A DNA stretch of 64,000 bases from Qipengyuania aurantiaca (GTDB lineage: Bacteria > Pseudomonadota > Alphaproteobacteria > Sphingomonadales > Sphingomonadaceae): positions 1,178,001 through 1,242,000 of the forward strand of contig NZ_CP081295.1 of the NCBI RefSeq assembly GCF_019711375.1, written 5' to 3'. Position numbers and translations under genes: made by a program. Shown one piece after another: positions 15,950 through 30,553 of the stretch; the first letter of the stretch is position 1, and every line of letters begins with the position of its first letter. Under the pieces are notes generated by a model, which had not been told where the DNA came from, did no database searches, and saw only the letters and a list, made by a program, of their open reading frames with translations.

Positions 15950-16924
15950 TCAGGAGAGCGCCTTCATGGCGCGCCCAAGGCTGTCGATCCGCCTCTGGGG
16001 ATCGAAGGTGGGACCTGCGAAGATGATCTCGTCGGCCTCTGTCCGCGCGACGAACTCGCGCACGGCAACAGCGCATTGGTCGGGCGTTCCGATGGCGCTC
16101 GCCTGCCCGATATGCGCCAGCATCGCCTGCGCGGTGGGCGGCAGCTGTTCGCGATAGCCTTCGACCGGCGGCTTCAGCTTGGATGGCTTGCCGGTGCGAA
16201 GCGCGACGAAGGCCTGCATCTGCGAGGTGGCGAGCAGTTCGGCATCGGCTTCGGTTTCGGCGCAGAAGAGGTTCATGGCCGCCATGACATGCGGTTTTTC
16301 GCACGCCTCGGACGGTTCGAAATTGCGGCGGTAAAGCTCGAGCGCCGCGTCGAGATGGTCGGGCGCGAAATGGCTCGCGAAAGCATAGGGAATGCCGAGC
16401 CGTGCAGCGAGGCTCGCGCCAAAGAGGCTCGATCCCAGCATCCAAAATTCCGGTTTCGCGCCAAGGCCGGGGGTTGGCGAAATCTCGCTCGTCCCGTCCA
16501 TATGCGCCATCAGTTCGACGACGTCCTGCGGGAACATCTCGGCGGCGCGGTGGAGGTCTTTCCTGAGCGCACGCTGGAGTTCGGGCCCTGCACCCGGAGC
16601 CCGGCCAAGGCCGAGGTCCACACGGCCGGGAAAGAGCGCGTCGAGCGTGCCGAACTGCTCGGCGATCTGGAATGGTGTGTGGTTGGGCAGCATGATCCCG
16701 CCCGAGCCGATGCGGATGGTGCTGGTGGCGTTGCCGACATGGGCCAGCACGACCGAGGTCGCGCCGCCGGCGATCCCTTCCATCGCGTGGTGTTCTGCCA
16801 CCCAGTAGCGTTTGCAGCCGGCTTCCTCGGCAGCCACGGCAAGCGCACTCGCGGCCTCGAACGCCTCGCCAAGGGTCCCGCCCTCACGAACAGGAACGAG
16901 ATCGAGGACGCTGTAAGCGGTCAT
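15950..16924 (-). CDS. LLM-class flavin-dependent monooxygenase (luciferase-like)
   Basis: TIM-barrel flavin oxidoreductase of 324 residues using FMNH2 or F420-like cofactors. Family features: YSVLDLVPVREGG at the start, RYWVAEHHAMEGIA near residue 42, IRIGSGGIMLPNH near residue 70, and DLGLGRAPG near residue 103, the pattern of the YhbW-type group 1 luciferase-like proteins. Substrate unknown. The start ATG overlaps the stop of the upstream TPR gene by four bases, so it belongs to a reverse-strand chain with the TPR and ABHD10-like genes. Confidence 0.88.
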   Translation of the reverse strand: MTAYSVLDLVPVREGGTLGEAFEAASALAVAAEEAGCKRYWVAEHHAMEGIAGGATSVVLAHVGNATSTIRIGSGGIMLPNHTPFQIAEQFGTLDALFPGRVDLGLGRAPGAGPELQRALRKDLHRAAEMFPQDVVELMAHMDGTSEISPTPGLGAKPEFWMLGSSLFGASLAARLGIPYAFASHFAPDHLDAALELYRRNFEPSEACEKPHVMAAMNLFCAETEADAELLATSQMQAFVALRTGKPSKLKPPVEGYREQLPPTAQAMLAHIGQASAIGTPDQCAVAVREFVARTEADEIIFAGPTFDPQRRIDSLGRAMKALS

Positions 16925-17781
16925 TCGTCTTCCGGTTCCTCGTCCGCCGGGCCAAGCTGGTCGAGATAGGTCTGCGCGCGGCTGGCCAGCGGCGTGCCGG
17001 GCGCAACCTCGATCACCGAGGCGAAACTGGCGCGTGCGTCTTCGGCGCGGCCCGACATGGCGGCGATCACGCCCGCTTCGAGGCCGACCTGCGGATCGCG
17101 CGGGGTGAGCATGGCGGCGCGCTCGATCTGCGCCTGCGCTTCGCCGAGCCGCTCCATCCGACGCGACAGCGTGGCGGACAGCAACCAGGCCTCGCCGTTG
17201 AGCGCGTTGGCTTCGCGCGCTTCGGCGAGGGCCAGCGCGGCGTCGTCGGCCCGGCCGTGGCGAACCATAACCCGGGCAAGGTCGACACGCAGCTCGCTAG
17301 CCAGCTCTCCGTCGGGCGCGGCCAGCGCCATGCCGCCTGCCCGGTCGAGCAGCGCGATGGCGCCTTCGAGGTCGCCCGAGGACACGGCCGCATTGCCGGC
17401 CATGGCCGCCAGCCTTGCGGCATAGGCGAGATTGTCCGCCGGTGCCTCGCCGCTGGCGAGTTCGAAGGCCTCGCGCGCTTCACCCATGCGTCCGAGCTGG
17501 ACCAGCGCCAGCCCGAGGCAATGCGCGCTTTGCGCAAAATCGAGATCGGTCTGGGCCACTTCGCGCCAGCTCTGCGCGAAATCGAGCGCCGATTGCGGAT
17601 CGCTCGACGCCTTGGTCAGGCAGCGTTGCAGATAGTTGGCCTGGGGCTGGGTCACGATGCGCGGCTCTTCACGCGGAGGGCGGTCGCGCAGTTCTTCGGG
17701 AATACCCGGCATGCCGCCCGCAGTAGGGTCCGGCCCGACTTGTGTGGCGAGGAGAGCGAAGGTGGCGAGGAGTGCGGTCAC
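16921..17781 (-). CDS. Tetratricopeptide-repeat protein, probably exported
   Basis: A 286-residue protein that starts with a short hydrophobic signal-like stretch (MTALLATFALLATQ) and a proline-rich linker, then helical repeats rich in Ala, Leu and Glu with TPR-like spacing (for example LGRMGEAREAFELAS, RHGRADDAALALAEA, MERLGEAQAQIERA, SGRAEDARASFASV). No enzymatic motif is present, so it is probably a protein-interaction scaffold in the periplasm. The start is GTG at 17781, overlapping the stop of the ABHD10-like gene as GTGA; a longer frame upstream runs through that gene and is unlikely to be used. The acidic tail ends DEEPEDE. Confidence 0.8.
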   Translation of the reverse strand: MTALLATFALLATQVGPDPTAGGMPGIPEELRDRPPREEPRIVTQPQANYLQRCLTKASSDPQSALDFAQSWREVAQTDLDFAQSAHCLGLALVQLGRMGEAREAFELASGEAPADNLAYAARLAAMAGNAAVSSGDLEGAIALLDRAGGMALAAPDGELASELRVDLARVMVRHGRADDAALALAEAREANALNGEAWLLSATLSRRMERLGEAQAQIERAAMLTPRDPQVGLEAGVIAAMSGRAEDARASFASVIEVAPGTPLASRAQTYLDQLGPADEEPEDE

Positions 17782-18527
17782 GCGGTTTCCCTGTCTTGCA
17801 AGAGGCCGTCCACCGTGCGCAGCAGCAGGGCGATATCCTGCGGCCGCGAGAGGCGGTGATCGCCGTCCTTGACGAAACTCACTTGAACCGCGTCCGAACG
17901 CAAGGCGTCGGCGAGGCGCTGGCTGATTTCCCACGGCACATCCGCGTCGCGCTGGCCGTGGAGGAGACGCACGGGCGCATCGATCGCTATGTCGGCGCCA
18001 AGCAGGCGCTGCGCTTGCCCGTCGACGAAAAAGCCGGCGTGGGTCGGCGTGGGCTCGGGGCCGTAGGGATTGTCCTCGAAAACGGTCTCGCCCGCCTCCA
18101 TCTGCGCCTTCTGGCCTGCGTCATAGCCCCAGTCGGTGAAATCGGGCGCAGCGGCGATGCCGATCAGGCCCGCCAAGCGCTCGCCCAGAGACAAGCCGAC
18201 CAGCAGCATGAGCCATCCGCCCATGGATGAGCCGATCACGACGACATCGCCGTCCACCTGAGCCTCGATAAGCGCCAGCACTTCCTCGCGCCATTTCGAC
18301 AGCGTGCCGTCGGCAAATCCGCCGTCGCTCCGTCCGCAGCCCGAATAATCGAGCAGCAGGCAGGCACGTCCGTGGCGCTTCGCCCAGTCGAACAGCGCGG
18401 TGGCCTTGCCGCCGTCCATGTCGGACATATAGCCGGGCAGGAATACGAGCGTCGGGCCCGCGCCCTCATGGTGGCGGAAAGCGATGCGCCGCCCGCCGGG
18501 CATTTCGTGAAAACGGATATCGGTCAT
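17778..18527 (-). CDS. Alpha/beta hydrolase resembling ABHD10 (acyl-protein thioesterase/esterase)
   Basis: Serine hydrolase of 249 residues. LVFLPGYMSDMDGGKA near residue 27, DYSGCGRSDG at 60-69, and the nucleophile elbow GSSMGG (Ser101) are followed by LLHGQRDADVPW with the acidic member and GDHRLSRPQD with the catalytic histidine. The order and wording match the ABHD10 family, whose mitochondrial members remove acyl groups from cysteines and cleave acyl-glucuronides. Function in bacteria is not established. The start ATG at 18527 was chosen because family similarity begins there. It overlaps the TPR gene by four bases and lies 56 bases downstream of the M48 protease gene. Confidence 0.88.
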   Translation of the reverse strand: MTDIRFHEMPGGRRIAFRHHEGAGPTLVFLPGYMSDMDGGKATALFDWAKRHGRACLLLDYSGCGRSDGGFADGTLSKWREEVLALIEAQVDGDVVVIGSSMGGWLMLLVGLSLGERLAGLIGIAAAPDFTDWGYDAGQKAQMEAGETVFEDNPYGPEPTPTHAGFFVDGQAQRLLGADIAIDAPVRLLHGQRDADVPWEISQRLADALRSDAVQVSFVKDGDHRLSRPQDIALLLRTVDGLLQDRETA

Positions 18528-18583
18528 GCCGCCAGGATGTCGGCCCGAAGCACTGCGATTGCAAGCCTGAGGGAGGCTTCCGC

Positions 18584-19669
18584 TTAGAAGAAGCCGAAGT
18601 CGAACTCCTCGACGTCGGGATCCTCTTCGCACATGGTCTTGATCGCTTGGAATTCGGCTTCGGTCAGGACGGGCGCGAAGGTCTTGCCCTTGGCCGCTGC
18701 GCGATAGGCCTTGGCGCGTTCGCGCGGGTCGGGGTGGCTCGAGACCCAGCCGATCACGGCGTTGGCATCGCCGCCTTCTTCCTCTTCCGCATCGCCGCCG
18801 ATGCGTTCGAAGAAGCTGGCCGCGCCCAGCGGGGAGACGTTGCTTTCTGCCATCCGCTCGCGCGCAAACTCGTCCGCCTCGCGCTCGGCGTCGCGCGAAT
18901 AGCCCATGGCGGCGAGGCCGAAGAGCGTCTCGCTCATGCCCGAATTGGCGCCCGACAGCAGGATCGACAGGCCGAACTGGCGCAGCAGCGCGGTCATCAC
19001 ATGGCGTTCGCGCACATGGCCGACCTCGTGGCCGAGCACGCCGGCCAGTTCCTCGGGTGTTTCGGCATCCTGCACCAGCCCGTCGAACAGCATGACCTGT
19101 CCGCCCGGCAGCGCGACCGCGTTGACCATGCCGATATTGGCGACGCCTGCGCGGACCTTTTCCTCGGCCGGATCGACCGCTGCGAGCAGCTTGGCCATGG
19201 CCGCATCGCCTTCGGGCGTGTGGCAGAGGCGGCCGCCCATATCGCCGACCATGGCGTTGCCGAGATTGCGCTCCCAGCTTTCGGGCACGCGCGGGCCGAG
19301 CCATTCGGGCGCGGTCAGGAACAGCGCCACGGCGGCGACGCTCACCGTGCCGAAGATCACCGCCGCCTTGCCGAGGCCGAGCCGGTCGATCCAAGCGCCA
19401 TAAGTGGTTTTGGCGGGTAGCTTCGCAGCAAGGCCTGCGGGCAGGTCGGACGACAGGATCAGCCGGAAATCGGGCAGGCTTTCGCGGCGATAGACATGCT
19501 CCCCGCCGCGCTCCTCGCCCCAAGTGAGATCGGCGAAGGGCACGTCCATGTCGCCGTTGAAGCCGCGCAGGTGCAAAGTGTCTCCACCGTCCCAACGCGC
19601 CTCGCCTTCGTGGCGGACGGCGGTGCTGCCATCGTACCAGATGGCCGGCTGGTTGAAGCTTTCTTCCAT
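18584..19669 (-). CDS. M48-family zinc metalloprotease with membrane anchor
   Basis: Envelope protease of 361 residues. An N-terminal soluble domain (about 1-75, rich in Trp/Tyr, RWDGGDTLHLRGFNG) precedes a single hydrophobic segment (about 101-120). The peptidase domain follows, with HEVGH at 214-218 and a third zinc ligand Glu264 in EREADEF; this is the Oma1/BepA/LoiP-type layout, acting in membrane or outer-membrane protein quality control. A short acidic tail ends the protein. AGGA lies 8 bases before the ATG, which is 10 bases after the stop of the DUF898 gene, so the two are probably one operon. Confidence 0.9.
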   Translation of the reverse strand: MEESFNQPAIWYDGSTAVRHEGEARWDGGDTLHLRGFNGDMDVPFADLTWGEERGGEHVYRRESLPDFRLILSSDLPAGLAAKLPAKTTYGAWIDRLGLGKAAVIFGTVSVAAVALFLTAPEWLGPRVPESWERNLGNAMVGDMGGRLCHTPEGDAAMAKLLAAVDPAEEKVRAGVANIGMVNAVALPGGQVMLFDGLVQDAETPEELAGVLGHEVGHVRERHVMTALLRQFGLSILLSGANSGMSETLFGLAAMGYSRDAEREADEFARERMAESNVSPLGAASFFERIGGDAEEEEGGDANAVIGWVSSHPDPRERAKAYRAAAKGKTFAPVLTEAEFQAIKTMCEEDPDVEEFDFGFF

Positions 19670-19679
19670 CGCGGGTGTC

Positions 19680-20765
19680 CTAGAAGGCGCCGATGTCGAA
19701 GGCGTCGAGCAGGCCCTCGCCATGGCGCGATGTCGCGGTGGTCGACTGGGTCAGCTCGTCGAGCAGGATGTCGCCGCCCGCTTCCAGATGCGTCACCATG
19801 AACTTCCAGTGGCGATAGGACAGGAAAATGAAGCCGAGGCCCAGCGTCAGCACCACGATCAGCGCATCGACGACGATGAGCTTGATCCAGTCCATGGTCG
19901 ACGCCTCGAAGCCGAAATGGAGGTCCTTCCAATGGGTCGAACCGACCGCTTCGCGGTAGAACTTGGCGTAGTAGGCGACGGCGATGATGCCGAGGCCGAT
20001 GTAGAAGAACAGCACCAGCGCAACGCCGATGGCCACCGCGCCCCACTGGGCGAATTGCTCCGAACCGAACCCGAATCCCGCCAGCGCACCCGTGACGCCG
20101 GCGATGATTGCGCCGATGAAGAACACGAAGGGCGACAGGTAGAAGAGCAGGAAGCGAGCGAAGACATTGCCCGAATCCGCGTCGGCGTCGAAGCGGTGGG
20201 GGCCGAAGCTCATCTTGCTCCAGCGCTCGTTCCACAGGCTGGTCATGGACCAGGGAATGGCGAGACCAAGCGGCAGGTAGCCGACAATGGTCTTCCACAT
20301 ATAGGAGACGCCGTAGCCCAGACCCTGATCGTCGCTGCCGCCGCGGATGCCGCGCCAGCGCGTGCGCGACAGGCGATAGCGCAGCGCGCGGAAGCGGGCG
20401 ACCCCGGTGAGGTAGAAGATCGCAAGAATGGGCAGGATGCCGAGCACGGCTCCGGCCAGTTCGTATCCGCGCAGGATCAGCGCTTGCGACACGAACTGGA
20501 TGCCGAAGACGGGAATGGCGAAGAGCAGCATGACAAGCAGGAAGCCGACGAACAGCTCCTTGCCGGTGCCGGTCCATTCCAGCCGTTCGTCGACGAAGCG
20601 CGTGTGCGACCAGAGATACTGGCGTTCGCGCGTTGTCGCCCAGAAGCGGTAGATGCCGAGCGTGACGATGGTCAGCAGCAGGTTCGGGACCGCAATCCGT
20701 GCGAAGTCCTTCCAATTGCCGTCGAAGCCGAAGGCGCTCTCGGCCTGAATATCTTCCTGGTACAT
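19680..20765 (-). CDS. DUF898 family multi-pass membrane protein (YjgN-like)
   Basis: Inner-membrane protein of 361 residues with about eight spans. Family hallmarks include FGFDGNWKDFARIAVPNLLL at the start, LGIYRFWATTRERQYLWSHT near residue 37 (the conserved Y-x-F-W-x-x-x-R block), RFRALRYRLSRTRWRGI near residue 124 and YYAKFYREAV near residue 268. The two related blocks suggest the internal repeat common to the family. Function is unknown. It heads the pair with the M48 protease gene, and a protease/membrane-protein partnership is an inference from this arrangement only. Confidence 0.86.
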   Translation of the reverse strand: MYQEDIQAESAFGFDGNWKDFARIAVPNLLLTIVTLGIYRFWATTRERQYLWSHTRFVDERLEWTGTGKELFVGFLLVMLLFAIPVFGIQFVSQALILRGYELAGAVLGILPILAIFYLTGVARFRALRYRLSRTRWRGIRGGSDDQGLGYGVSYMWKTIVGYLPLGLAIPWSMTSLWNERWSKMSFGPHRFDADADSGNVFARFLLFYLSPFVFFIGAIIAGVTGALAGFGFGSEQFAQWGAVAIGVALVLFFYIGLGIIAVAYYAKFYREAVGSTHWKDLHFGFEASTMDWIKLIVVDALIVVLTLGLGFIFLSYRHWKFMVTHLEAGGDILLDELTQSTTATSRHGEGLLDAFDIGAF

Positions 20766-20860
20766 AGTAATGGGCGACCCCCCAGTCGAATGTCGTGTAA
20801 AAATTCCCGTCCGGGTTCGACAATCGATAGGCGGGCCGCCCAAGTCAAGCGCTGCTGCAC

Positions 20861-21064
20861 TCAGTCGCGCTGGAATATGTCCTCGATGGGCATTTCGAAC
20901 ACATCGGCGATGCGAAAGGCGAGCGGGAGCGAGGGATCGTAGCGCCCGGTCTCGATCGCGTTGACGCTCTGGCGCGAAACCTCGAGCCGGTCGGCCAGCT
21001 CCTGCTGGCTCCAATTGCGCTCCGCGCGCAGGACCTTGAGCCGGTTCTTCACAGCGAGCCCCAT
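20861..21064 (-). CDS. Small XRE-family helix-turn-helix regulator
   Basis: A 67-residue Cro/C1-type DNA-binding protein made of almost nothing but the HTH: RNWSQQELADRLEVSRQSV followed by AIETGRYDPSLPLAFRIADVF and a short tail. This size class (YozG-like) usually sits next to membrane-protein genes. Its start codon lies inside the last codons of the upstream membrane-protein gene (16-base overlap), so it is translationally coupled and likely controls the same operon. The name of the operon product is unknown. Confidence 0.9.
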   Translation of the reverse strand: MGLAVKNRLKVLRAERNWSQQELADRLEVSRQSVNAIETGRYDPSLPLAFRIADVFEMPIEDIFQRD

Positions 21065-21654
21065 GTGCCGTGGGTGAGGCGGTTGGAAATCGCGCCGAGG
21101 AACTGGCCGCCGAAGAAAGCGACCGCGAACCAGTAGGCCGGGATATGCGGCACGACATCGCCTGTTTCCAGGAAGCCCCAGATGGTGGCGAAGCCGAGCG
21201 CAAAGCCGGTTGCGATCAGCGTCTGGCGCACGATGAGCATGCGCAGGAATTCGTCCTTCTCGTCGAGGATCAGGCGTCCGATGGCCCAGAACACGCCGCA
21301 GATGGCGAGGCCCGGCAGGACCGAGAGGCCGGCGCGCACGGCGAGCGAACGGTCCTCCCCGTCGAGCAGGCTGACCTGCAGCGCGATCACCACGAGATAG
21401 AGCGAGGAAAAGATCGCGACCCGCTTGATATAGAGCCGCTGCGCCTCCCCGCGCCCGCTGCAGGTGCTCTTGCGGCTGGCGGCGCGCATGGTCTGGAAGA
21501 ACAGCGCGGCCGGCACGATCATGAGGATGAGCGTGGTCGTGGCGTTGATCGCGTCCGACAGGGCGAGCCCCATGACCATGCCGAAACTGGCGAAGGTCAG
21601 CCCGGCCCAGAGCGGCACGGATTGGCGGAACGTGCCGCCCTCCTGAGTGCTCAT
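21049..21654 (-). CDS. Six-span membrane protein, unknown function
   Basis: 201 residues with about six hydrophobic segments (LWAGLTFASFGMVMGLALS, LILMIVPAALFF, VAIFSSLYLVVIALQVSL and others), an inner-membrane protein without recognised motifs. The loop LILDEKDEFLRMLIVRQTLIATG is reminiscent of small membrane partners of XRE regulators (DUF2178-like, low certainty). Overlaps the XRE gene at its 3' end and the 61-codon membrane gene at its start (four bases). Confidence 0.75.
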   Translation of the reverse strand: MSTQEGGTFRQSVPLWAGLTFASFGMVMGLALSDAINATTTLILMIVPAALFFQTMRAASRKSTCSGRGEAQRLYIKRVAIFSSLYLVVIALQVSLLDGEDRSLAVRAGLSVLPGLAICGVFWAIGRLILDEKDEFLRMLIVRQTLIATGFALGFATIWGFLETGDVVPHIPAYWFAVAFFGGQFLGAISNRLTHGTWGSL

Positions 21655-21836
21655 GCCTTGCTCTGCTTCAGTAGATTGCAGGACTTGCGATCACGCAGCC
21701 AGGCGCCGGGGAACAGGGCGAGAAGGAGAAAGGGCGAATAGTGCGCCACCTCCTCGGGCACGATTTCGAAAACGGCAAGCAGCGCGATTCCGATCATGGC
21801 TGAGGCGAGGAGGAGGGCTTTCGTGGTCTGAGTCAT
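21651..21836 (-). CDS. Small membrane protein (61 residues), first gene of the XRE operon
   Basis: Two hydrophobic stretches (LLLASAMIGIALLAVFEIV and SPFLLLALFPGAWL) predict a two-span inner-membrane protein. The ATG at 21836 follows AAGGA with an 8-base gap; an alternative ATG at 21875 would add 13 residues ahead of it. The stop overlaps the next gene by four bases, so the order small membrane protein, six-span protein, XRE regulator forms one overlapping unit. No known family recognised. Confidence 0.7.
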   Translation of the reverse strand: MTQTTKALLLASAMIGIALLAVFEIVPEEVAHYSPFLLLALFPGAWLRDRKSCNLLKQSKA

Positions 21837-21943
21837 GGCAAGTGTCCTTTTCTTGATGTAAAGGGTATTTGTCATGAGTCGCTGGTTATGGCAAGCACGC
21901 TTTCCAAAACGGAGCGTGTCCTTGTCATTCGTCACATTCGTGC

Positions 21944-21961
21944 TTGTCACGGGACTGCCAT
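21944..21961 (+). promoter_or_regulatory. Candidate Pho box upstream of phoD
   Basis: Two 7-base direct repeats, TTGTCAC and CTGCCAT, separated by GGGA, give the 11-base period of a PhoB box; 11 of 14 repeat positions match CTGTCAT. A further TTGTCAT lies at 21922-21928, exactly 22 bases (two periods) upstream. The site ends 39 bases before the phosphatase start. No convincing -10 element was found. Confidence 0.4.
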
Positions 21962-22000
21962 CGGGCGCAGGCATGGCAGCCAAGAGGAGACCCGCATCCC

Positions 22001-23698
22001 ATGTCCCAGACCGAACCGCCCGCATCCCCACGCCTGCCTGCCCTCGATCGCCGCAGCCTGCTCAGGGGCGGGCTTCTCGGCGGCGGTCTGTTCGCTGCGC
22101 CGCTGGCTGCGCAATTCGATCCGGGAGCGGCAGGCTTCACCCATGGCGTGGCGAGCGGCGAGCCGGGGCACGAGCGGGTGCTACTCTGGACGCGTTACAG
22201 GGCCGCGCAGGACGTGACGCTCACCTGGCAGGTGCTCAGCGCCGACGCCAACCGCCGCGTGGTGGCCGAAGGCGAGGTGGTGGCGTCGCCCGTCAACGAC
22301 TGGTGCTGCAAGCCCTGGGCAGAAGGCCTTGCGCCGGGGCGGTGGTACTACTTCCGCTTCATCGCGCCCGATGGCACGACCTCCGATCTCGGTCGCACGC
22401 GCACGCTCCCTCGCGAGAATGTCTCGCGCTGGAAGATGGCGGTCTTCTCCTGTTCGAACCTCGGCTTCGGCTGGTTCAACGCCTATGCCCGCGCCGCTGA
22501 AACCAACCAGTTCGACTGTGTGCTGCATCTCGGCGACTATCTCTACGAATACCCGCAAGGCACCTATCCGGGCGAGCGGCAGACAGTCCGCAGCCGCGCC
22601 CCGCTCGACCCGCAATCCGAGGTCGTCGCGCTCGCCGATTACCGTGCGCGCTATGCGCAGTACCGCAGCGATCCGGACCTTCGCCGCATCCACCAGCTCT
22701 ACCCGATGATCGCCGGCTGGGACGATCACGAAAGCAGCAACGACAGCTGGGAAGGCGGCGCGCAAAACCACCAGCCCGAGACCGAAGGTCCGTGGTCCGT
22801 CCGCAAGGCCGCGGCGATGAAAGCCTACCGCGAATGGATGCCCGTTTCCGACGAGCCCTGGGCCGAATACCAGGTTGGCGACCTTGCAACATTGTTCCGC
22901 TTGGAGACGCGTCTCTCGGATCGGTCGAAACAGTTTGATTACAACACTTTGCTGCGCAGCAATTTGCCTCCCGAAGAAGCCATCGCGCGGCTCGAAGCTT
23001 TCCGTGACGGCGATTATATCGACCCCTCGCGCGAGGTCTTGGGGATGCAGCAGCAGGCATGGCTTGCCGATGGGTTCAAGCGCTCGAAGGCAAGCGGCAC
23101 CAAGTGGCAGGTGCTGGTGCAGCAGGTGCTCATGGGCAAGCTTGCCTCGGCCACTTCGATTACCGACACGCTGCCCGACAACACGCCGGACTACATCCGC
23201 GAGCGCGTCGTCGCGGGCGCGCTTGCGAGCCGGGCGGAGCTGCCCCTCAACATGGACGCATGGGACGGCTATCCCGCCGCCCGTGCCCGGCTGTTCGAAG
23301 CGGCGCTGGCGGCCGATGCCAACCTCGTCAGCCTTGCCGGAGACACGCACAACGCCTGGGCGTTCGACCTTGCGCACGAAGGCGCGAAGGTCGGGGTCGA
23401 ATTCGGCGGACACTCGGTCACCTCGCCTGGGCTGGAAGGATATTTGCCCCATATTCCGCCCGAAACGGTCGCGGGTGCGCTCGTCGCACGCAATCCGGAA
23501 CTGAAATGGATGAACGCTTCCAAGCGCGGCTACATGGCCATCGAGCTGACGCCGGGCGTTGTCCATTGCGACTACCATTTCATGCACGACGTGCGCAGCC
23601 GCAATGATGCGGTAAATCCCTCGCACCGCGTAACCGCCGTGCTCGACGCGCGCGAACTCACCGAACCTTGCACTTCGGACTGCGACGTCATATTCTGA
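22001..23698 (+). CDS. phoD: Alkaline phosphatase D, Tat-exported
   Basis: Periplasmic or secreted phosphomonoesterase/phosphodiesterase of the PhoD family, 565 residues, which releases phosphate from organic esters. A twin-arginine signal (RRSLLRGGLLGGGLF, Arg17-Arg18, cleavage near LAA) is followed by the PhoD N-terminal domain (FTHGVASGEPGHERVLLWTRY) and the metal-binding catalytic domain: SCSNLGFG, LHLGDYLYEYP, WDDHE and LAGDTHNAW, which carry the Ca/Fe ligands. GAGGAG precedes the ATG by about 12 bases. A candidate Pho box lies upstream. The last codon is only five bases ahead of the Thr-rich leader ORF of thrS, and the promoter of that leader lies inside the phoD 3' end. Confidence 0.93.
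   Translation: MSQTEPPASPRLPALDRRSLLRGGLLGGGLFAAPLAAQFDPGAAGFTHGVASGEPGHERVLLWTRYRAAQDVTLTWQVLSADANRRVVAEGEVVASPVNDWCCKPWAEGLAPGRWYYFRFIAPDGTTSDLGRTRTLPRENVSRWKMAVFSCSNLGFGWFNAYARAAETNQFDCVLHLGDYLYEYPQGTYPGERQTVRSRAPLDPQSEVVALADYRARYAQYRSDPDLRRIHQLYPMIAGWDDHESSNDSWEGGAQNHQPETEGPWSVRKAAAMKAYREWMPVSDEPWAEYQVGDLATLFRLETRLSDRSKQFDYNTLLRSNLPPEEAIARLEAFRDGDYIDPSREVLGMQQQAWLADGFKRSKASGTKWQVLVQQVLMGKLASATSITDTLPDNTPDYIRERVVAGALASRAELPLNMDAWDGYPAARARLFEAALAADANLVSLAGDTHNAWAFDLAHEGAKVGVEFGGHSVTSPGLEGYLPHIPPETVAGALVARNPELKWMNASKRGYMAIELTPGVVHCDYHFMHDVRSRNDAVNPSHRVTAVLDARELTEPCTSDCDVIF
23668..23696 (+). promoter_or_regulatory. Candidate promoter for the thrS leader, inside the phoD 3' end
   Basis: TTGCAC (23668-23673) and TATTCT (23691-23696) are separated by exactly 17 bases. 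Initiation 7-8 bases further on would fall at the ATG of the Thr-rich ORF (23704), giving a leaderless transcript, which agrees with the missing Shine-Dalgarno sequence there. Confidence 0.5.
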
Positions 23699-23703
23699 CC
23701 CGC

Positions 23704-23775
23704 ATGACGCACGCGCGCATCACGACCACTACTACCACCACCCCGGTCCTCCGGGGGCGGATGCGCGCGGCCTAA
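23704..23775 (+). CDS. Threonine-rich leader peptide of thrS
   Basis: A 23-codon ORF reading MTHARI, seven threonines in a row (codons 7-13, bases 23722-23742, using ACG, ACC and ACT), then PVLRGRMRAA and TAA. Such runs of the cognate amino acid define attenuation leader peptides (thrL of enteric bacteria has a similar run). It lies 125 bases upstream of thrS on the same strand. No ribosome binding site is seen, but the predicted transcript would start at or next to the ATG, as in the leaderless trpL of Sinorhizobium. Stalling at the Thr codons would be the sensor for charged tRNA-Thr. Confidence 0.8.
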   Translation: MTHARITTTTTTTPVLRGRMRAA

Positions 23776-23832
23776 GCGACGCACCGCCACCCGGTTTCGG
23801 GTGGCAGGCGTTTCCTCCCGAAATCGCGATTT
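23741..23832 (+). promoter_or_regulatory. Attenuator-like set of alternative stems before thrS
   Basis: Stem 1:2 pairs CCCCGG (23741-23746, overlapping the last Thr codon) with CCGGGG (23751-23756). Antiterminator-like stem 2:3 pairs CCGGGGGCGG (23751-23760) with 23784-23794, ten pairs with one bulged A. Stem 3:4 pairs GCCACCCG (23786-23793) with CGGGTGGC (23798-23805), loop GTTT. A further stem (23793-23801 with 23817-23825) is followed by TTTT. The 2:3 and 3:4 stems exclude each other, as in classical attenuation. The T tracts are short, so termination strength is uncertain. Confidence 0.6.
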
Positions 23833-23900
23833 TCTCCCAAACGCCGCTTCAAGCGCGTGGCTAGCTGTGCCATGGGCCTCGCAACGAAACGGATGAGACG

Positions 23901-25919
23901 ATGACGGAACTTTTGAAGATCAGCCTGCCCGATGGTTCGGTGCGCGAAATGGAACCCGGCAGCACGCCCGCCGATGTCGCCGCCGCGATCGGCCCGGGTC
24001 TCGCCAAGGCCGCCATCGCCGCGCGCGTCGATGGTGAATTGCGCGATATCAATCGCCCCTTTGAAGGCGACGCCGAACTTGCTCTTGTCACCTCCCGCGA
24101 CGAGGAAGACGCGCTCGAACTGGCGCGCCACGATTTCGCGCATGTGCTGGCCGAAGCGGTCCAGTCGCTCTTCCCCGGCACGCAGATCACCTTCGGCCCG
24201 GCGACGGACGACGGCTTCTACTACGACGTGAAGGCGCCCGACACGCGCGAGCCGTTCAGCATGGACGACCTCCCCGCGATCGAGGAGGAAATGCGCCGCA
24301 TCATCAAGGCCGACAAGCCGCTGACGCGCGAGGTCTGGAGCCGCCAGCAGCTGATCGACAAGTGGGAGGCCGAAGGCGAGGTCTTCAAGGCCGAATGGGC
24401 CAAGGAACTTCCCGAAGGCGAGGAACTGACCGTCTATCGCAGCGGCGAAGACTGGCTCGACATGTGCCGCGGGCCGCACCTTGCCTCGACCGGCAAGCTC
24501 GATCCGCAGGCCTTCAAGCTGATGCGCGTCGCCGGGGCCTACTGGCGCGGCGACCAGAAGAATGCGCAGCTCACGCGCATCTACGGCACAGGCTGGCTCA
24601 ACAAGAAGCAGCTCAATGCGCACCTGACGCGCCTCGAAGAGGCCGCCAAGCGCGACCATCGCAAGCTGGGCCGCGAGATGGACCTCTTCCACCTGCAGGA
24701 AGAGGCGCATGGCAGCGTCTTCTGGCATCCCAACGGCTACCGGATCTGGCGCGAGCTCGAAGCCTATATGCGCCGCAAGATGGACGGTGCGGGCTATCGC
24801 GAGATCAAGACGCCGCAACTGATGGACGTGCGCCAGTGGACCGCTTCGGGGCACTGGGGCAAATACGCAGAGAACATGTTCGCCGTCCCCGATATCGTGC
24901 CCGATGTGGACGATAGCGGCGCGGCCTCGGCCCATCCTAAGGTGGCGGACGATGCCGACTGGATGGCGATCAAGCCGATGAACTGCCCGGCGCATGTGCT
25001 GGTCTTCAAGCAGGGCATTACCTCCTATCGCGACCTCCCCATCCGCCTCGGCGAAATGGGTTGCTGCCACCGCAACGAACCGCATGGCGCGCTTCACGGG
25101 CTGATGCGCGTGCGCCAGTTCACGCAGGACGATGCGCATATCTTCTGCACCGAAAGCCAGGTGGTCGAAGAGGTCCGCGCCTTCTGCGAACTCGCCGACA
25201 GCATCTACAAGGATTTCGGCTTCACCTATCACGTCAAGCTCGCCCTGCGCCCCGAGAAGCGGTTCGGGAGCGAGGCGGACTGGGACAAAGCCGAACAGGA
25301 ACTGCGCGACGCCGTGGCCGAAGCCGGCATGGCGAATGCAGACTATGGCTGGGAGGAACTGCCCGGCGAAGGCGCCTTCTACGCGCCCAAGCTCGAATGG
25401 CATCTCACCGACGCGATCGGCCGTACGTGGCAGGTCGGCACGATCCAGGGCGACCGCGTGCTGCCCGAACGTCTCGATGCGAGCTATGTCGGCGAAGACG
25501 GCGAGAAGCACCGCCCGGTCATGCTGCACCGTGCGATCTTCGGCAGCTACGAACGCTTCATCGGCATCCTGATCGAGCATTACGCCGGCCGTATGCCCGT
25601 GTGGCTCGCCCCGACGCAGGCGGTGGTCGCGACCATCGTCTCCGACGCCGACGATTACGCGAAGGAAGCGGTCGCGAAGCTCGAAGCGGCGGGCATTCGC
25701 GTGGCAAGCGATCTTCGCAACGAGAAGATCAACTACAAGGTGCGCGAACACAGCCACGCCAAGGTCCCGCACCTGCTGGTGGTCGGCAACCGCGAGGCCG
25801 AGGAAGGCACCGTCGCGGTGCGCACTCTGGGCCAGCAGCACCAGAAGGTGATGCCGCTCGAAGAAGCGATTGCGATGCTGAAGGCCGAGGCGACCCCGCC
25901 GGATTTGCGCGAAGGCTGA
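23901..25919 (+). CDS. thrS: Threonine--tRNA ligase
   Basis: Charges tRNA-Thr with threonine in the cytoplasm. The 672-residue enzyme has the full bacterial layout: an N-terminal TGS domain ([19 protein letters not shown]), the editing domain with HDFAH and the later [12 protein letters not shown] cysteine/histidine region (DMCRGPHL), the class II catalytic core with MNCPAH carrying the zinc cysteine, [16 protein letters not shown] as motif 2, and [19 protein letters not shown] as motif 3, then the anticodon-binding domain ending near [24 protein letters not shown] lies just before the ATG. Upstream is a Thr-rich leader ORF with alternative stems, suggesting control by transcription attenuation. 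Confidence 0.97.
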
Positions 25920-25929
25920 GAGCAGGACG

Positions 25930-26676
25930 GTGGCCCTGCTTGCGGGCTATTCCGTGGCGGCGATCGTCGCCGCCTTGCTCGCCGCCTTCGGCTCGGCCTT
26001 TGTGCGCGGGCTTACGGGGTTCGGGATGGCGATCCTGCTTGTGCCGGTGCTGGCGCTGGCGCTGACACCGGTCGATGCGGTGCTGTTGACGAACTTTCTG
26101 TCGGTTTTCATCGGGGTTTCGGAAATCCGGCGGTTGCTGCGCGGGGCGGAGAAATCGGCCTGGGCCATCATCGCGCTGGTGGCGGTGACGACGCCAGTCG
26201 GGCTTTACCTGCTCAGTCTTACCTCGCCAGCCATCGCGCGGGTGGTGATTGCGCTCATCGCCCTTTCGGCCTTCCTCGCCATCCTCCTGCCGCGCCTTAA
26301 GGCACTCGAGCATCATCCGGCAACGACCGGCGGGGTCGGCGTGCTCTCGGGCCTGATGACCGGCTATGCCGGAATGCCCGGCCCGCCGGTCGTGCCTTAT
26401 TACGTCGGGCGCGATATCCCGCGCGAGACTGCCAAGGCCTCGATGCTGCTGATCTTCACCTGCGCTTCGACCACAGGCCTTGCCAGCGGGACGATACTCG
26501 GCCTGCTCGATTGGAGGCTGGCCTTGCTGGCGCTCCTGCTCTTCCCCGCCGTGCTGCTCGGCAATTGGCTGGGGAACAAGGCCTCGGGAAGCATCGAGGA
26601 TCGCACCTGGCGGATCTGTGTTGGCGTAGTGCTCGGCGGGGCGGCGCTCGCAGCGCTATGGAAGGCGTTCGGTTAG
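25930..26676 (+). CDS. TauE/SafE family anion exporter/transporter, copy 1
   Basis: Inner-membrane protein of 248 residues with about eight spans. The TauE/SafE repeat signature occurs as GSAFVRGLTGFGMAILLVPV near the start and GLMTGYAGMPGPPVVPYYV in the second half. Family members move sulfite, sulfonate-derived or other organic anions; the substrate here is unknown. It starts with GTG at 25930, ten bases after thrS, and ends directly at the ATG of a paralogous second copy. Confidence 0.87.
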   Translation: MALLAGYSVAAIVAALLAAFGSAFVRGLTGFGMAILLVPVLALALTPVDAVLLTNFLSVFIGVSEIRRLLRGAEKSAWAIIALVAVTTPVGLYLLSLTSPAIARVVIALIALSAFLAILLPRLKALEHHPATTGGVGVLSGLMTGYAGMPGPPVVPYYVGRDIPRETAKASMLLIFTCASTTGLASGTILGLLDWRLALLALLLFPAVLLGNWLGNKASGSIEDRTWRICVGVVLGGAALAALWKAFG

Positions 26677-27417
26677 ATGCTGGGGTTGACCTATGAGGCG
26701 ATCGGGATTGCGCTCCTAACCGCGCTTGCGGCAGGCTTCGTGCGCGGGCTTGCCGGCTTCGGCCTCTCCGTCGTCATCGTCCCCGTACTCGCGCTGACCA
26801 TCGCGCCGAAGGAAGCGGTGCTGGTGGGCAATATCTCGCTCTTCCTCATCGGCCTGACCGACATCGGCCGCATTCGCCGCGAGGCCGATAGGTCGGCGAT
26901 CCCGATCCTGCTGCTGGCCATTGCCTGCATGCCGCTCGGCCTGTGGGCGCTGGTGACGCTCAGCGCCGATTGGGCGCGGCTGCTGATCGCTCTGGTCTCG
27001 CTCGGTGCCTTTGTGCTGGTGGTTGTGCCGCTGGGCAAGATCGCCATGCCCCGCAAGCCCGCGATGGGGTTGTCGGGCTTCTTCACCGGCTTCTTCGGCG
27101 GCTTTGCCGGGATGCCGGGTCCGGGCATGGCGCCCTTCTACCTGCGCGGACGGCTGGAGCCGCGGGTAGCGCGCGCCTCGATGATGGCGATCTTTTTGGT
27201 CCTGACCCCGCTCAGCGCGATGCTCTTCGTGGCGCTCGGCGTGGGCGGAATGCGCGAGGTTCTGCTCGCGCTATTGCTCTTCCCCGCCGTGCTGGTGGGC
27301 GACCTCTTCGGCCACGCCGCCTTCGGCAAGGTGAGCGCGCGCCAATGGCAGGTCAGCGTGGCGCTGGTGTTGGGCAGTGCGGCGGCCGGAGCTGTGTGGA
27401 AGCTCCTGCAAGGGTAG
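26677..27417 (+). CDS. TauE/SafE family transporter, copy 2
   Basis: 246 residues, about eight spans, paralogous to the preceding gene: AAGFVRGLAGFGLSVVIVPV and FFGGFAGMPGPGMAPFY correspond to the same blocks. The two genes abut with no spacer (TAG then ATG), so they were probably made by tandem duplication and may form a heterodimer or have diverged in substrate. Substrate unknown. Confidence 0.87.
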   Translation: MLGLTYEAIGIALLTALAAGFVRGLAGFGLSVVIVPVLALTIAPKEAVLVGNISLFLIGLTDIGRIRREADRSAIPILLLAIACMPLGLWALVTLSADWARLLIALVSLGAFVLVVVPLGKIAMPRKPAMGLSGFFTGFFGGFAGMPGPGMAPFYLRGRLEPRVARASMMAIFLVLTPLSAMLFVALGVGGMREVLLALLLFPAVLVGDLFGHAAFGKVSARQWQVSVALVLGSAAAGAVWKLLQG

Positions 27418-27473
27418 GGTTTTCGCAAGGCAATCCCGCTATACTCCGTCCGGTAACGAGGGGTACGGGGTCG

Positions 27474-29372
27474 ATGGACAGCACCATGGATATCGCGGCG
27501 CAGCGCCGGGACGAGGAAGACGCACGGCTGGTAACCGGCGCGGCGGACATCCTTGCCGGGATCGCCAGCCTGCTCGCGCTGATGACGCTGGGCGCCTTGC
27601 TCGGGGCGACCGGTCCCTTTGCCGGAGCCTTGATTGCCGCAGCCGCGACCGGTCTCGCTATCCCGCTGGTGAAGCAACGCAATTTCGCCTTCAGCGCGAT
27701 CGTCCTCGCCGTGAGCGCAGCCTTCGGCGTGCTTATCGCCACGATTTTCCTCGAATTCGGGGCAGGCTTCGTGGTGGCGGGCTTCATGGCGTGGTTCTGG
27801 AAGACCTACCGCGTGCCCATCGCAGGCGCGCTTGTCGTGGCCGCGCCGGTGGCGACAATCCTCGGCCTGCGCAACGTGTTCGAAACCGCCTGGGGCGGCG
27901 GCGGACCGTGGGAGAGCCTTGTCGCGGGCATCGTGATGTTCGGCTTCGCCATGGCGGCCGACATGTCCGATCCCGAGCGCACCACCCGCCGGTCGGGCAT
28001 CGGCTTCTGGCTCCACATCTTCGCCGCACCCTGCATCGTCCACGGCATCTTCCTCATCGGCGGTTTCCAGCCCGGTTTCGACCAGCCGGTGCAGGCCTTC
28101 CCGGTGCTCACCATTGTCGGCCTGCTGGCGCTGGTCGCGCTGGTGATCGACCGGCGTCCGCTGCTCGCGTCCAGCCTCGGCTATGTCGCCTTTGCGCTGG
28201 CCTCGCTGGGCGAGGGGCTGGCGATCGAGACGCGGCTGATCGCGGTGAGCCTGACGCTGGGCTTGGGCATCCTCGCACTGGCCGCGCTGTGGTCGCCTTT
28301 GCGGCGTGCTGCGCTGGTGCTGGTACCCGCCTCGCTCAAGGACAAGCTGCCCAGCGCCGGGGCAGTCATACCGCCGCCCAAGCCGGTGGCGAAGGAGACC
28401 CCGGCGGAAGAAGAGCCCGTCCGGCTCGTCTCCGGCTTTAACGACATTTTCGTGGTGATGGGCACGCTGCCGCTGTGCTTCGGCGCGTGGATACTTGCCG
28501 GTGTGTGGCTCTACAGTTCGGGCATCATTGTGCAGGGCGGGCTGGCCGCCGACTGGCTGCCCAAGTCGCTCGCCGCGCTGCTCATTCCAGGCGCGGTCGT
28601 CTGGGCGGTGTCCGAATTTTTCGTGCGTATCCGCCGCATGGCCTTTCCCGCCATCGTGCTGGCCGGACAATTCGCGACCGTCGCCTTCACCGCGGGCGTG
28701 CTGCTCGGCTATCTCGCCATCAATCCCGAAGGCCGCGACATGTCGGGCTTTCGCGACGGGATCGACCCCCTGGGCACGATCATCGCCTGCTGCGTCGCGG
28801 CGCTTCTCAACGTGCTCTTCGCGTGGCGCCACCGCGTGCCCTATGCGCTGGCGATGGCAGCGGCATCGCTGCTGCCGCTGTTCTTCATCGACTATCTGGC
28901 GAACACCGATCCGGCGAGCGCGCTTCCCGGACCGACCGAGACCGGCATCCGCATCCGCCTGCTGCTGGCCGGGGCCTGCGCCGCGGCGGTGGGCGTGTGG
29001 CTCGACCTGTCGGACCGCGAGCGGCGCACGCAAAGCTCGGACACGGCCTTCTGGCTCCATATGCTCGGCAGCCTGCTGCTGGTGCCGAACCTCTTCCACT
29101 TTGCGGCCAGTGGCGAGTTCGCTCTGGCCGGCGCGCTGGTGATCTTCCTCGGCATCGCGATGTTCGCGCTCGCGGTGGACCGGCGCGCGGGGCTGATCGT
29201 CGGCCTGCCCTTCCTTGCCTGGACGCTGGGCGACGTGTTCGACGGTTTCGGAGAGAGTGGCCTTGCGCTGCTGGCCTTCAGCGCGCTCGTGCTCTGGGCG
29301 GCGTTGAAGTGGCAGGAACTGCGCGCGAGCGTGTTCGCCTGGGTGAACCAGGACAGCGCGAGCGAAATCTAG
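27474..29372 (+). CDS. Large multi-span membrane protein with internal duplication, unknown function
   Basis: 632 residues with roughly 18-20 hydrophobic segments. Two halves repeat one pattern: MAADMSDPERTTRRSGIGFW followed by LHIFAAPCIVHG in the first, and GVWLDLSDRERRTQSSDTAF followed by WLHMLGSLLLVPN in the second. The halves are joined by a Pro/Glu-rich cytoplasmic linker near residue 300 (PPPKPVAKETPAEEEP). A paired acidic-arginine motif (D-x-S-D-x-E-R) and FWLH are conserved between the halves, suggesting functional residues. No known transporter family is recognised. The ATG at 27474 is preceded by GGGG runs; a second ATG is four codons further on. It follows the TauE pair by 56 bases. 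Confidence 0.75.
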   Translation: MDSTMDIAAQRRDEEDARLVTGAADILAGIASLLALMTLGALLGATGPFAGALIAAAATGLAIPLVKQRNFAFSAIVLAVSAAFGVLIATIFLEFGAGFVVAGFMAWFWKTYRVPIAGALVVAAPVATILGLRNVFETAWGGGGPWESLVAGIVMFGFAMAADMSDPERTTRRSGIGFWLHIFAAPCIVHGIFLIGGFQPGFDQPVQAFPVLTIVGLLALVALVIDRRPLLASSLGYVAFALASLGEGLAIETRLIAVSLTLGLGILALAALWSPLRRAALVLVPASLKDKLPSAGAVIPPPKPVAKETPAEEEPVRLVSGFNDIFVVMGTLPLCFGAWILAGVWLYSSGIIVQGGLAADWLPKSLAALLIPGAVVWAVSEFFVRIRRMAFPAIVLAGQFATVAFTAGVLLGYLAINPEGRDMSGFRDGIDPLGTIIACCVAALLNVLFAWRHRVPYALAMAAASLLPLFFIDYLANTDPASALPGPTETGIRIRLLLAGACAAAVGVWLDLSDRERRTQSSDTAFWLHMLGSLLLVPNLFHFAASGEFALAGALVIFLGIAMFALAVDRRAGLIVGLPFLAWTLGDVFDGFGESGLALLAFSALVLWAALKWQELRASVFAWVNQDSASEI

Positions 29373-29385
29373 AGAAGGGCGTCCT

Positions 29386-29514
29386 TTAAAAAGGAAGCGC
29401 AGGGCCGGCGAGGATCAGCGCGAAGCCGCAGCCCGTCACCACGGCGACGCGCAGCATCTCGCCCAGCGGAAGCGCTGGAGCGTGACTGCGTGCGAGAGCG
29501 ATAGCCTTTGCCAT
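29386..29514 (-). CDS. Small single-span protein (42 residues)
   Basis: MAKAIALARSHAPALP followed by a hydrophobic segment (MLRVAVVTGCGFALILAG) predicts a tiny membrane protein. GGAG lies about 10 bases before the ATG at 29514. It lies 34 bases after the agmatine deiminase stop on the same strand and may be its last operon gene. No known family; coding status rests on the ribosome binding site and composition. Confidence 0.5.
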   Translation of the reverse strand: MAKAIALARSHAPALPLGEMLRVAVVTGCGFALILAGPALPF

Positions 29515-29548
29515 GCCCCTATTCTCCGCTCCAATCCCTAACGAATCG

Positions 29549-30553
29549 TTAAATGCGCGCGCGGGCGGCGGGCATCTGCTGGCTGGCACAATGGAATCCG
29601 CCGCCCCCGGCAAGCACCGCATCGCCGCGAATCCCGATAGTGGCGCGGTCGGGGAAGAGATCGGCGATGGCCGCTACGCCTTCCTCGTCATAGGGGCTGC
29701 CGAAGGTCGGTACGACCACGAGATGGCTGGTGATGGCGAAGTTGGCGTAGCTTGCCGGTTCGATCCGGTCGCCGCTGGTGATGAGGCCGGGCGAGGGGAT
29801 GCTTTGCACCACCACCCCTGCCTCTTCGGCGCGGGCCTTGGCGTCCTCGTAGATCGCGGCGTTCGGATCATCCGTGCCGGTCGCGCGCGGCAAGGCCAGC
29901 GTGTTCGCCCCGACGAAGCGCGCGAGATTGTCGACATGGCCGTCGGTGTGGTCGTTGATAAGGCCGTCGCCCAGCCACAGCACGCGGGTGAAGCCGAGGT
30001 TGGATTTCAGCCGCTCCTCAATTTCCTCGCGGGAAAGCTGCGGGTTGCGATTGGGATTGAGCAGGCATTGCTCGGTCGTGGCGACAAGGCCCGTGCCATC
30101 GCCGTCGATCGCCCCGCCTTCGAGTATCCAGTCGGCGACCTCCAGCGGAAGGCCGGCATCCTCGGACAGTTCAGCGCCGATGGTCTGGTCGCCCTCCATC
30201 AGATACTTGCCGCCCCAGCCGTTGAAGCCGAAGCGGTGCGCCATGCGGTGGCCGGTCGCATCGGTAAGCACCAGTGGACCGGTGTCGCGCAACCATACGT
30301 CGCCATATGCGCGCCGCTCAAGCTTCACAGAGCCACTGACGAGATCGCGCGCGCGCTGTTCGTTGGCGGCGTCGCGGACCAGCAGGCGGACCTCCTGCCC
30401 GCTCTCGGCCACGGCGTTGGCGAAGGCGGCGATCTGCTCCTGCGCGCGCGGCAGGACTTCGGGCCATTCGTCCGCATCGTGCGGGAAGCCGATCCACAGC
30501 CAGTCCTGGGGGGCCCATTCGGGCGGCATGGTCCATCGGGGCGCGTCGTTCAT
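29549..30553 (-). CDS. aguA: Agmatine deiminase
   Basis: Converts agmatine to N-carbamoylputrescine and ammonia in arginine-derived polyamine metabolism. The 334-residue product is typical. The penteine-fold active site is visible: DVWLRDTGP, WILEGGAIDGDGTG, EQCLLNPNRNP, DHTDGHVDN and the nucleophile in GGGGFHCASQQMP (Cys322 near the end). No gene for N-carbamoylputrescine amidase (aguB), its usual neighbour, lies in this window. No clear Shine-Dalgarno precedes the ATG. The next minus-strand gene upstream (flotillin) is separated by a strong terminator. Confidence 0.93.
   Translation of the reverse strand: MNDAPRWTMPPEWAPQDWLWIGFPHDADEWPEVLPRAQEQIAAFANAVAESGQEVRLLVRDAANEQRARDLVSGSVKLERRAYGDVWLRDTGPLVLTDATGHRMAHRFGFNGWGGKYLMEGDQTIGAELSEDAGLPLEVADWILEGGAIDGDGTGLVATTEQCLLNPNRNPQLSREEIEERLKSNLGFTRVLWLGDGLINDHTDGHVDNLARFVGANTLALPRATGTDDPNAAIYEDAKARAEEAGVVVQSIPSPGLITSGDRIEPASYANFAITSHLVVVPTFGSPYDEEGVAAIADLFPDRATIGIRGDAVLAGGGGFHCASQQMPAARARI

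Follow-up and report, generated by a model that had tools for sequence, protein, structure and literature searches.

Leader peptides with cognate codons, coupled to an antiterminator/terminator logic, characterize the pheST attenuator and the thr operon leader of enterobacteria. The gene for threonyl-tRNA synthetase (ThrRS), thrS, is translationally autoregulated in Escherichia coli, where ThrRS binds tRNA-like stems near the start of its own message. In Bacillus subtilis, thrS and thrZ are controlled by T-boxes, which bind tRNA directly, sense uncharged tRNA-Thr and have no leader open reading frame (ORF). Here we analyse a stretch of 64,000 nucleotides from Qipengyuania aurantiaca (contig NZ_CP081295.1, positions 1,178,001 to 1,242,000; the window hereafter), in which a threonine-rich leader ORF and a set of alternative RNA helices lie upstream of thrS. 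This element is probably a ribosome-mediated attenuator that senses Thr-tRNA and couples thrS to charged tRNA-Thr, with a pseudoknot acting as a latch. As with the E. coli operator, thrS would then be controlled by the balance of ThrRS and tRNA-Thr; here a leader ORF and the position of a ribosome would do the sensing instead. The T-box shares the target gene thrS, but not the leader ORF, and no T-box family match was found in the window.

A Thr leader before thrS has been published. In the available part of PMC8079986, thrL of Streptomyces lividans TK24 is a leader peptide ORF before thrS on a leaderless transcript mapped by RNA sequencing (RNA-seq), and further leaders are given for trpS, leuS and alaS. 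The thrL peptide has 18 amino acids with two Thr codons, and its hairpin has no U-rich sequence, so that termination is called unclear in the same excerpt (PMC8079986). The locus described here shares with thrL the Thr leader directly before thrS, the probable leaderless start and the hairpin without a U-run. By eye, the end of the thrL peptide, ...TTPGFVPAR, also resembles the ...TTTPGFRGR found in relatives of our leader. Unlike our locus, thrL belongs to another phylum, and the available text of PMC8079986 reports no alternative structures, covariation or pseudoknot. Since thrL is published, the idea of a Thr leader before thrS is not new, and the statement of the initial annotation that such a leader may be undescribed does not hold in that form.

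Work by Lopatovskaya et al. (2010) on the attenuation of aminoacyl-tRNA genes may include thrS. We found no thrS attenuator described for Alphaproteobacteria in literature searched mostly without subscription papers, and the available parts of PMC2330054, PMC7509114 and PMC8394870 hold no thrS leader peptide. What is new here, on the comparative reading, is the long Thr run, the covarying switch and the predicted pseudoknot.

Other described systems share single properties with this one. The uORFC-8-2 motif before cysS of Rhodobacterales is, in the accessible part of PMC8632094, a leader ORF with cognate codons that is tied to one gene and predicted to act by ribosome-mediated attenuation; like our locus, it combines an alphaproteobacterial tRNA-synthetase gene, a cognate-codon leader and a single target. 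It has two tandem Cys codons, two stems and a 3′ U-run, with no pseudoknot described in that part of the paper (PMC8632094), whereas here we find Thr codons, thrS, no proper U-run and covarying helices beyond the terminator-like helix 3:4 (defined below). In Sinorhizobium meliloti the attenuator RNA rnTrpL starts at the ATG of its leader ORF, according to the available text of PMC7298713, so that trpL and our element are both alphaproteobacterial attenuators whose RNA starts, here probably, at the leader ATG. That system has Trp codons, the target trpE(G) and a described terminator, and the same excerpt reports no pseudoknot (PMC7298713). The LEU element before leuA of Actinobacteria also has a leader ORF with a run of cognate codons and a pseudoknot or alternative structure; in its base stem the Leu codons are paired to the Shine-Dalgarno box of leuA, and reported codon mutations misfit classical attenuation (PMC1262725, available part). 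It serves a biosynthetic gene in another phylum. Streptomyces trpS and leuS have predicted attenuators, with poly-U in the leuS terminators, in the same part of PMC1262725. Together with pheST and the thr operon they resemble our locus in the cognate-codon leader, the antiterminator/terminator logic and synthetase targets, and differ from it in genes and lineages. A search with the Rfam 15 families, the threonine leader included, gave no gathering-score match at this locus and only tRNA elsewhere in the window.

The initial annotation had placed a Thr-rich ORF of 23 codons, with seven Thr codons in a row, between phoD and thrS, together with three mutually exclusive stems, 1:2, 2:3 (ten pairs) and 3:4. 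Translation and domain matches bear out the former, and the coordinates of the stems the latter: the observation of a Thr leader with alternative helices upstream of thrS is real. Two further covarying helices, 4:5 and 6:7, had been overlooked. The gene 5′ of the leader encodes a PhoD-like phosphatase (PF09423, E 6.7e-97) with its stop codon at 23696-23698. The parts of the element are as follows.

23704-23775, forward strand: leader peptide ORF of 23 codons, translating as MTHARITTTTTTTPVLRGRMRAA* and present in relatives, with a probably leaderless 5′ end
23722-23742, forward strand: seven consecutive Thr codons (regulatory codons; leader codons 7-13), ACG ACC ACT ACT ACC ACC ACC
23741-23746, forward strand: segment 1, pairing with 23751-23756 (six pairs)
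23751-23760, forward strand: segment 2, pairing with segment 1 or 3, by covariation
23784-23794, forward strand: segment 3, pairing with segment 2 or 4, by covariation and a pair private to 3:4
23795-23805, forward strand: segment 4, pairing with segment 3 (23798-23805) or segment 5 (23795-23804), by covariation
23807-23813, forward strand: segment 6, GGCGUUU, in the hairpin loop of 4:5, 5′ strand of the predicted pseudoknot stem S2, by cognate against permuted pairing
23814-23823, forward strand: segment 5, CCUCCCGAAA, 3′ strand of the predicted pseudoknot stem S1 (4:5), by compensatory changes
23839-23845, forward strand: segment 7, AAACGCC, 3′ strand of stem S2 (6:7), preceded by the 15-nucleotide (nt) loop L3, by cognate against permuted pairing
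23901-25919, forward strand: thrS, threonyl-tRNA synthetase of 672 amino acids (TIGR00418, 636 bits, above cut-off; four ThrRS-type Pfam domains)

The evidence that carries the structure is covariation. Leaders were gathered into a set of 160 entries (a few genomes occur twice), of which 125 are less than 90% and 98 less than 80% identical. Helix 2:3 joins 23751-23760 with 23784-23794 in ten pairs with one bulge, and helix 3:4 joins 23786-23793 with 23798-23805 in eight. The 241-nt stretch as a whole is more stably folded than shuffled versions of it (z -2.44), of which 3 in 200 do as well. RNAalifold, run on an earlier alignment, chose 2:3 and 4:5 unprompted. In the 98 sequences, 94.9% of the alignment cells of helices 2:3 and 4:5 together are paired, where shuffles reach 86.6%. 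Both partners have changed in 18 of the 21 pairs, which none of 500 shuffles equals, and 124 cells show such double changes against 26 in shuffles. These counts are helped by the fitting of this alignment to the 2:3/4:5 structure, and the shuffles keep the effects of relatedness. When the partners are slid against each other, pairing drops to 40-68%. Helix 4:5 taken by itself has 96.7% of its cells paired and compensatory changes in nine of nine pairs.

Helix 3:4, the alternative to both, has 93.4% of cells paired and both-side changes in five of its eight pairs (8 of 500 shuffles as many). One of these eight pairs (columns 177/209) joins bases that are unpaired in 2:3 and in 4:5, and its states are GC 60, AU 14, GU 13, UA 1 and other 8, of 96. 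A covarying pair that is private to 3:4 suggests that this helix is selected for itself.

Helix 6:7 was scored in the same 98 sequences with no alignment of segment 7, the partners being sought 9-27 nt after segment 5 and permuted among the sequences. The cognate score is 18.34 against 15.18 for permuted partners (standard deviation 0.26; 0 of 5000 as high). Control spans at 27-45, 36-54 and 42-60 nt score close to permutation (equalled in 51, 491 and 545 of 2000 permutations), and the overlapping span 0-18 is raised (11.32 against 10.43, 0 of 2000). The highest-scoring partner is located 10-18 nt past segment 5 in 82 of the 98 sequences, and at 13-16 nt in 61 of them. Many compensated versions of the helix occur, e.g. 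GGCGTTT:AAACGCC, GGTGTC:GACACC, GGCGTC:GACGCC, GCGGCTT:AAGCCGC, CGGTGCC:GGCACCG and CGGCATC:GATGCCG. In the window the two stems have nine and seven pairs, and the loops L1, L2 and L3 are 2, 0 and 15 nt long; two covarying stems with these loop lengths give the geometry of an H-type pseudoknot. Both 4:5 and 6:7 are compatible with 2:3, and 4:5 excludes 3:4. We infer that 4:5 and 6:7 coexist in one molecule as such a pseudoknot. Four leaders of the genus (L005, L060, L066 and L067) carry a self-complementary insert of about 90 nt in loop L3, with segments 5 and 7 kept.

The leader ORF is conserved in content as well. Among 125 leaders, the Thr content is 4-13 codons and the longest Thr run 2-9 codons. 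ACT accounts for 23% of the 850 Thr codons in leaders and for 6% of the 1140 at the start of thrS. Comparison among relatives establishes the leader, its Thr codons, the helices 2:3, 3:4, 4:5 and 6:7 and their mutual exclusivity.

Directly 5′ of the leader lies a candidate promoter at a position conserved in relatives.

23668-23696, forward strand: promoter P1, -35 TTGCAC at 23668-23673, 17-nt spacer, -10 TATTCT at 23691-23696

P1 overlaps the last codons of phoD. The start at 23668 given by the initial annotation is the -35 hexamer of P1, inside phoD. Relatives, mostly within the genus, have a counterpart of the form TTGAGA-N17-TATCTC in the same place, immediately 5′ of the leader. In the window the leader ORF begins 6-7 nt after the -10 box. 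Of 72 leaders, with gaps of 4-11 nt allowed, 49 have a gap of 7 nt and 10 one of 6 nt; in the larger set of 160, where the choice of ATG leans to a gap of 6-7 nt if alternatives exist, the numbers are 95 and 47. The base before the leader ATG is C in 80% of 125 leaders. This spacing and the base at -1 place the transcript start at or beside the A of the AUG, and the leader mRNA is probably leaderless. A strict consensus promoter scan of window positions 15000-34000 listed no promoters, P1 included, so P1 falls under the threshold of that scan.

A ribosome on the leader was then represented by masking 15 nt either side of its A site (window transcript to 23828), and the fold was computed for the 98 leaders. 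With the ribosome in the middle of the Thr run, 2:3 is more probable than 3:4 in 70 of 98 leaders and 4:5 more probable than 3:4 in 83. With the ribosome two codons past the run, 2:3 is favoured over 3:4 in 8 of 98 and 4:5 in 24. For the window itself, an A site on the fourth Thr codon gives probabilities of 0.98 for 2:3 and 0.95 for 4:5, and the free RNA gives 1.00 for 3:4. The model therefore supports a switch of fold by the ribosome on the Thr run, mid-run and not at every codon.

The comparative check that had been proposed, across relatives in the order, found conserved Thr-rich leaders and covarying, mutually exclusive stems. The region 5′ of thrS was extracted from 168 Sphingomonadales genomes and examined for ORFs that start with ATG and contain three or more Thr codons in a row. 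Such a leader is present in 55 of 57 regions of the genus Qipengyuania (60 genomes searched; the misses are L034 and L073) and in 16 of 55 from other genera of the family; one locus (L081) has a leader with its Thr codons not in a row, and in another (L035) the switch lies further up. In other families, among which L113 is counted, one of 56 regions has a matching ORF (L159, three Thr codons and no structure), which was dropped from the leader sets after this first count.

A covariance model of the element, R1, was built from 42 leaders (L091, L097, L099, L086 and others were left out) and searched within Alphaproteobacteria. Within the family it is found at E <= 0.01 in 107 of 298 genomes, spread over 39 of 96 genera. 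In a sample of 385 genomes of the class it matches four, all of them members of the same family; no genome outside the family matches, in a search whose filters lose weak matches. The genome of Q. aurantiaca has one strong match (141 bits), followed by one of 20 bits (E 0.07). All 88 matches that were fetched, a set outside which the two weakest family genomes (G331 and G292) lie, have thrS downstream, as have L250 and L253-L255; the leader ORFs of these 88 were chosen for Thr content near the start of the match. R1 also matches 53 of the 80 nearest named thrS loci, including Qipengyuania, Erythrobacter, Porphyrobacter, Parerythrobacter, Tsuneonella, Pelagerythrobacter, Croceicoccus, Allopontixanthobacter, Novosphingobium indicum and others. 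On a FastTree tree of thrS with 80 rows, presence of the switch changes 17 times against a shuffled mean of 22.7, which suggests that the switch is old and often lost, or that it moves.

Some leaders depart from the common form. In two from the genus (L021 and L025) the Thr run is three codons long, RGR is missing and the 3:4 loop is longer; R1 still scores them at 38 bits, and decay or rewiring are possible. In six loci (L295, L300, L303, L305, L309 and L035) the leader is separated from thrS by an ORF that starts with MRYYIDTEFNGT and looks exonuclease-like by eye, and three distant R1 matches (L176, L177 and L213) probably have the same type of intervening ORF. With an ORF in this position the switch may control two genes.

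Taken together, we propose the following mechanism. RNA from P1 would have its 5′ end on the A of the leader AUG or beside it, and ribosomes would load on this leaderless message. When Thr-tRNA is ample, the ribosome would clear the Thr run and cover segment 2; 3:4 would form, and RNA reaching into thrS would either not be made or not persist. When Thr-tRNA is scarce, the ribosome would stall in the Thr run and cover segment 1, leaving segment 2 free to form 2:3. This would release segment 4 for pairing with segment 5, and loop segment 6 would join segment 7 in an H-type pseudoknot that keeps segment 4 from segment 3. In this state the long thrS RNA would survive, giving more ThrRS and in turn more charged tRNA. 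With no translation at all, 1:2 and 3:4 would form in the window sequence, which is an off state. Of the attenuation on thrS envisaged in the initial annotation, the conserved leaders, the stems and the mid-run folding stand; the read-through step is a prediction, since 3:4 is no canonical intrinsic terminator, and a second promoter may bypass the switch.

A number of observations weigh against attenuation as we propose it. Helix 1:2 has 84.7% of cells paired in the 98 sequences and covaries weakly. (A stem of the leader start with GAUGCGCGC, taken from a single-sequence fold as a candidate segment 1, was set aside, as by eye it is not common to relatives.) In the computed folds 2:3 beats 3:4 in 30 of 98 leaders free of any ribosome (4:5 in 41) and in 43 with the mask at the start codon. 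In the window, placing the A site on the first Thr codon yields 2:3 but leaves 4:5 improbable (0.07); on the seventh, 3:4 is already formed (1.00), and at the stop codon the states are mixed, with 3:4 at 0.06 to 0.72 depending on transcript length. The best partner of segment 6 lies elsewhere in 16 of 98 leaders, a score of 16 is reached by 42.9% of non-cognate 6:7 pairs against 80 of 98 cognate ones, and 6:7 could be a plain separate hairpin in the off state. The switch is missing from 27 of the 80 named relatives, and three R1 matches have no thrS: L284, a second match in genome G078 (E 0.0095, 24 bits), and the sub-threshold L251 and L252 of the Q. aurantiaca genome. Transcripts from the candidate promoter P2, described below, may bypass the switch, which, were they dominant, is the case that the initial annotation itself named as speaking against it. 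Finally, 3:4 is absent from the terminator scan of the window, and the best 8 nt of its tail hold five T in 2 of 98 leaders, four in 25 and at most three in 71.

This last point concerns the output of the switch. Helix 3:4 lacks the U-run of a canonical intrinsic terminator, which makes intrinsic termination doubtful. As a yardstick we looked to trpE and ilvB of the same genome and found no short ORF with a codon run before either; just before ilvB (L347, about 1425-1460) there is a strong GC-rich hairpin, GGCCCGGCGC...GCGCCGGGCC, with no obvious leader peptide. A terminator of opposite logic, with 4:5 as its hairpin, was rejected, since at most 5 T of 8 follow segment 5 (in 15 of 98 leaders) and they are not conserved. 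Segments 5 and 7 lie 3′ of the position of an intrinsic terminator and yet show strong compensatory change, so a later decision (by Rho) or the fate of the longer RNA seems to matter.

Two accounts of the off state do about equally well, each not far short of an even chance. In the first, 3:4 with its tail GGCGUUUCC would be a weak but sufficient intrinsic terminator, and 4:5 and 6:7 would only prevent read-through RNA from refolding. The helix is GC-rich and conserved, the window has UUU after it, and for GC-rich bacteria it has been claimed that hairpins can terminate transcription without a U-run. Many relatives have no T-run in this tail, however, e.g. GGTGTCAGC, and a decision taken at the tail needs neither of the covarying segments beyond it. 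In the second account, the off-state RNA would be untranslated after the leader stop codon and its C-rich stretch from segment 5 onward exposed, and Rho or an RNase would remove it, with the pseudoknot as a protective latch. The lack of a U-run and the covariation of parts 3′ of 3:4 fit this, and the 60 nt after 3:4 are on average 39% C and 26% G in the 98 sequences, an excess of C over G that follows partly from pairing with the G-rich segment 4; the pseudoknot would hide the C-rich segment 5. The exposed stretch is short for a Rho site. The thrS leader of S. lividans likewise has a hairpin without a U-rich sequence, with termination called unclear, in the available text of PMC8079986. Silencing by Rho on a C-rich stretch that the pseudoknot hides, and silencing by a weak terminator, are rated equal. 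That the attenuator works with no intrinsic terminator at all, the pseudoknot being the decisive latch that shields an untranslated leader from Rho or nuclease, we put forward tentatively, at rather less than an even chance.

Control at the level of translation, with the thrS ribosome-binding site masked in one structure and open in the other, is very improbable. The leader and thrS lie on one mRNA, and E. coli thrS is controlled in this manner. In the model the thrS start region has a mean probability of being unpaired of 0.48 when the on state is forced and of 0.47 when the off state is (on above off in 58 of 97 leaders, L295 left out), so control of the E. coli type through this site is not borne out by computation, and the two states stayed alike when sequestration was calculated again with a different way of forcing the pairs. 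The ORF between switch and thrS in the six loci named above also speaks against this explanation.

A second promoter-like box lies between the switch and thrS.

23847-23875, forward strand: candidate promoter P2 of thrS, a conserved promoter-like box of 29 nt, CTTCAAG...TGTGCCATGG, a loose motif in relatives

The exact sequence of the box occurs once in the genome. Regions with the switch carry its loose form in 124 of 160 cases (3.4 after letter shuffling), regions classed as lacking the switch in 13 of 41 (0.9) and regions of other families in 3 of 55 (2.0), counts that ignore kinship. The 41 include L035, with its switch further up, and L113, from another family. The last hexamer lies 23-30 nt 5′ of thrS in 82 of the 124. 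The box presumably resembles a heat-shock-type promoter. We considered an RNA hairpin or a ThrRS-binding arm in its place and rejected both, as single folds differ among relatives and no column pair with high mutual information is stem-like; because of these inconsistent folds we treat the box as DNA-level and promoter-like. Its flanks show a small, unexplained excess of cognate pairing (16.80 against 15.65, standard deviation 0.27, 0 of 5000, 98 sequences). We read 23847-23875 as a candidate second promoter, which would give basal thrS expression. In L034, of the same genus, and in L050 the leader and P1 are gone or decayed and the box before thrS is kept, making these natural deletion cases.

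If P2 made nearly all thrS mRNA, the switch would be a conserved sequence with little regulatory effect. The box itself, its survival in L034 and the patchy presence of the switch on the thrS tree agree with this, but the retention of Thr codons and the compensatory changes seen in several helices indicate that the RNA is under selection, and we regard this explanation as very improbable. The most improbable reading of all is that the leader chiefly yields an attenuator RNA or peptide that acts in trans, as rnTrpL/peTrpL of Sinorhizobium do, and hardly affects thrS. The leaderless leader ORF has its parallel in rnTrpL (PMC7298713, available part), but each of the 88 copies described above stands before thrS and the codon run fits the downstream enzyme.

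Downstream of thrS the window holds two adjacent TauE/SafE-type exporter genes (25930-27417).

Attenuation of thrS in the Erythrobacter/Qipengyuania/Novosphingobium lineage, as proposed here, is backed by covariation and not by a single genome. About 100 diverged natural variants of the switch are available for studying the coupling of ribosome position, RNA folding and termination or decay. S. lividans thrL, leaderless and without a U-run in the available text of PMC8079986, is a second test case. The covarying helices beyond the terminator position suggest that the regulatory decision extends past 3:4, possibly via a pseudoknot latch. If true, such a latch would be a distinct output mode for leader-peptide attenuation, on thrS and with a leaderless leader.

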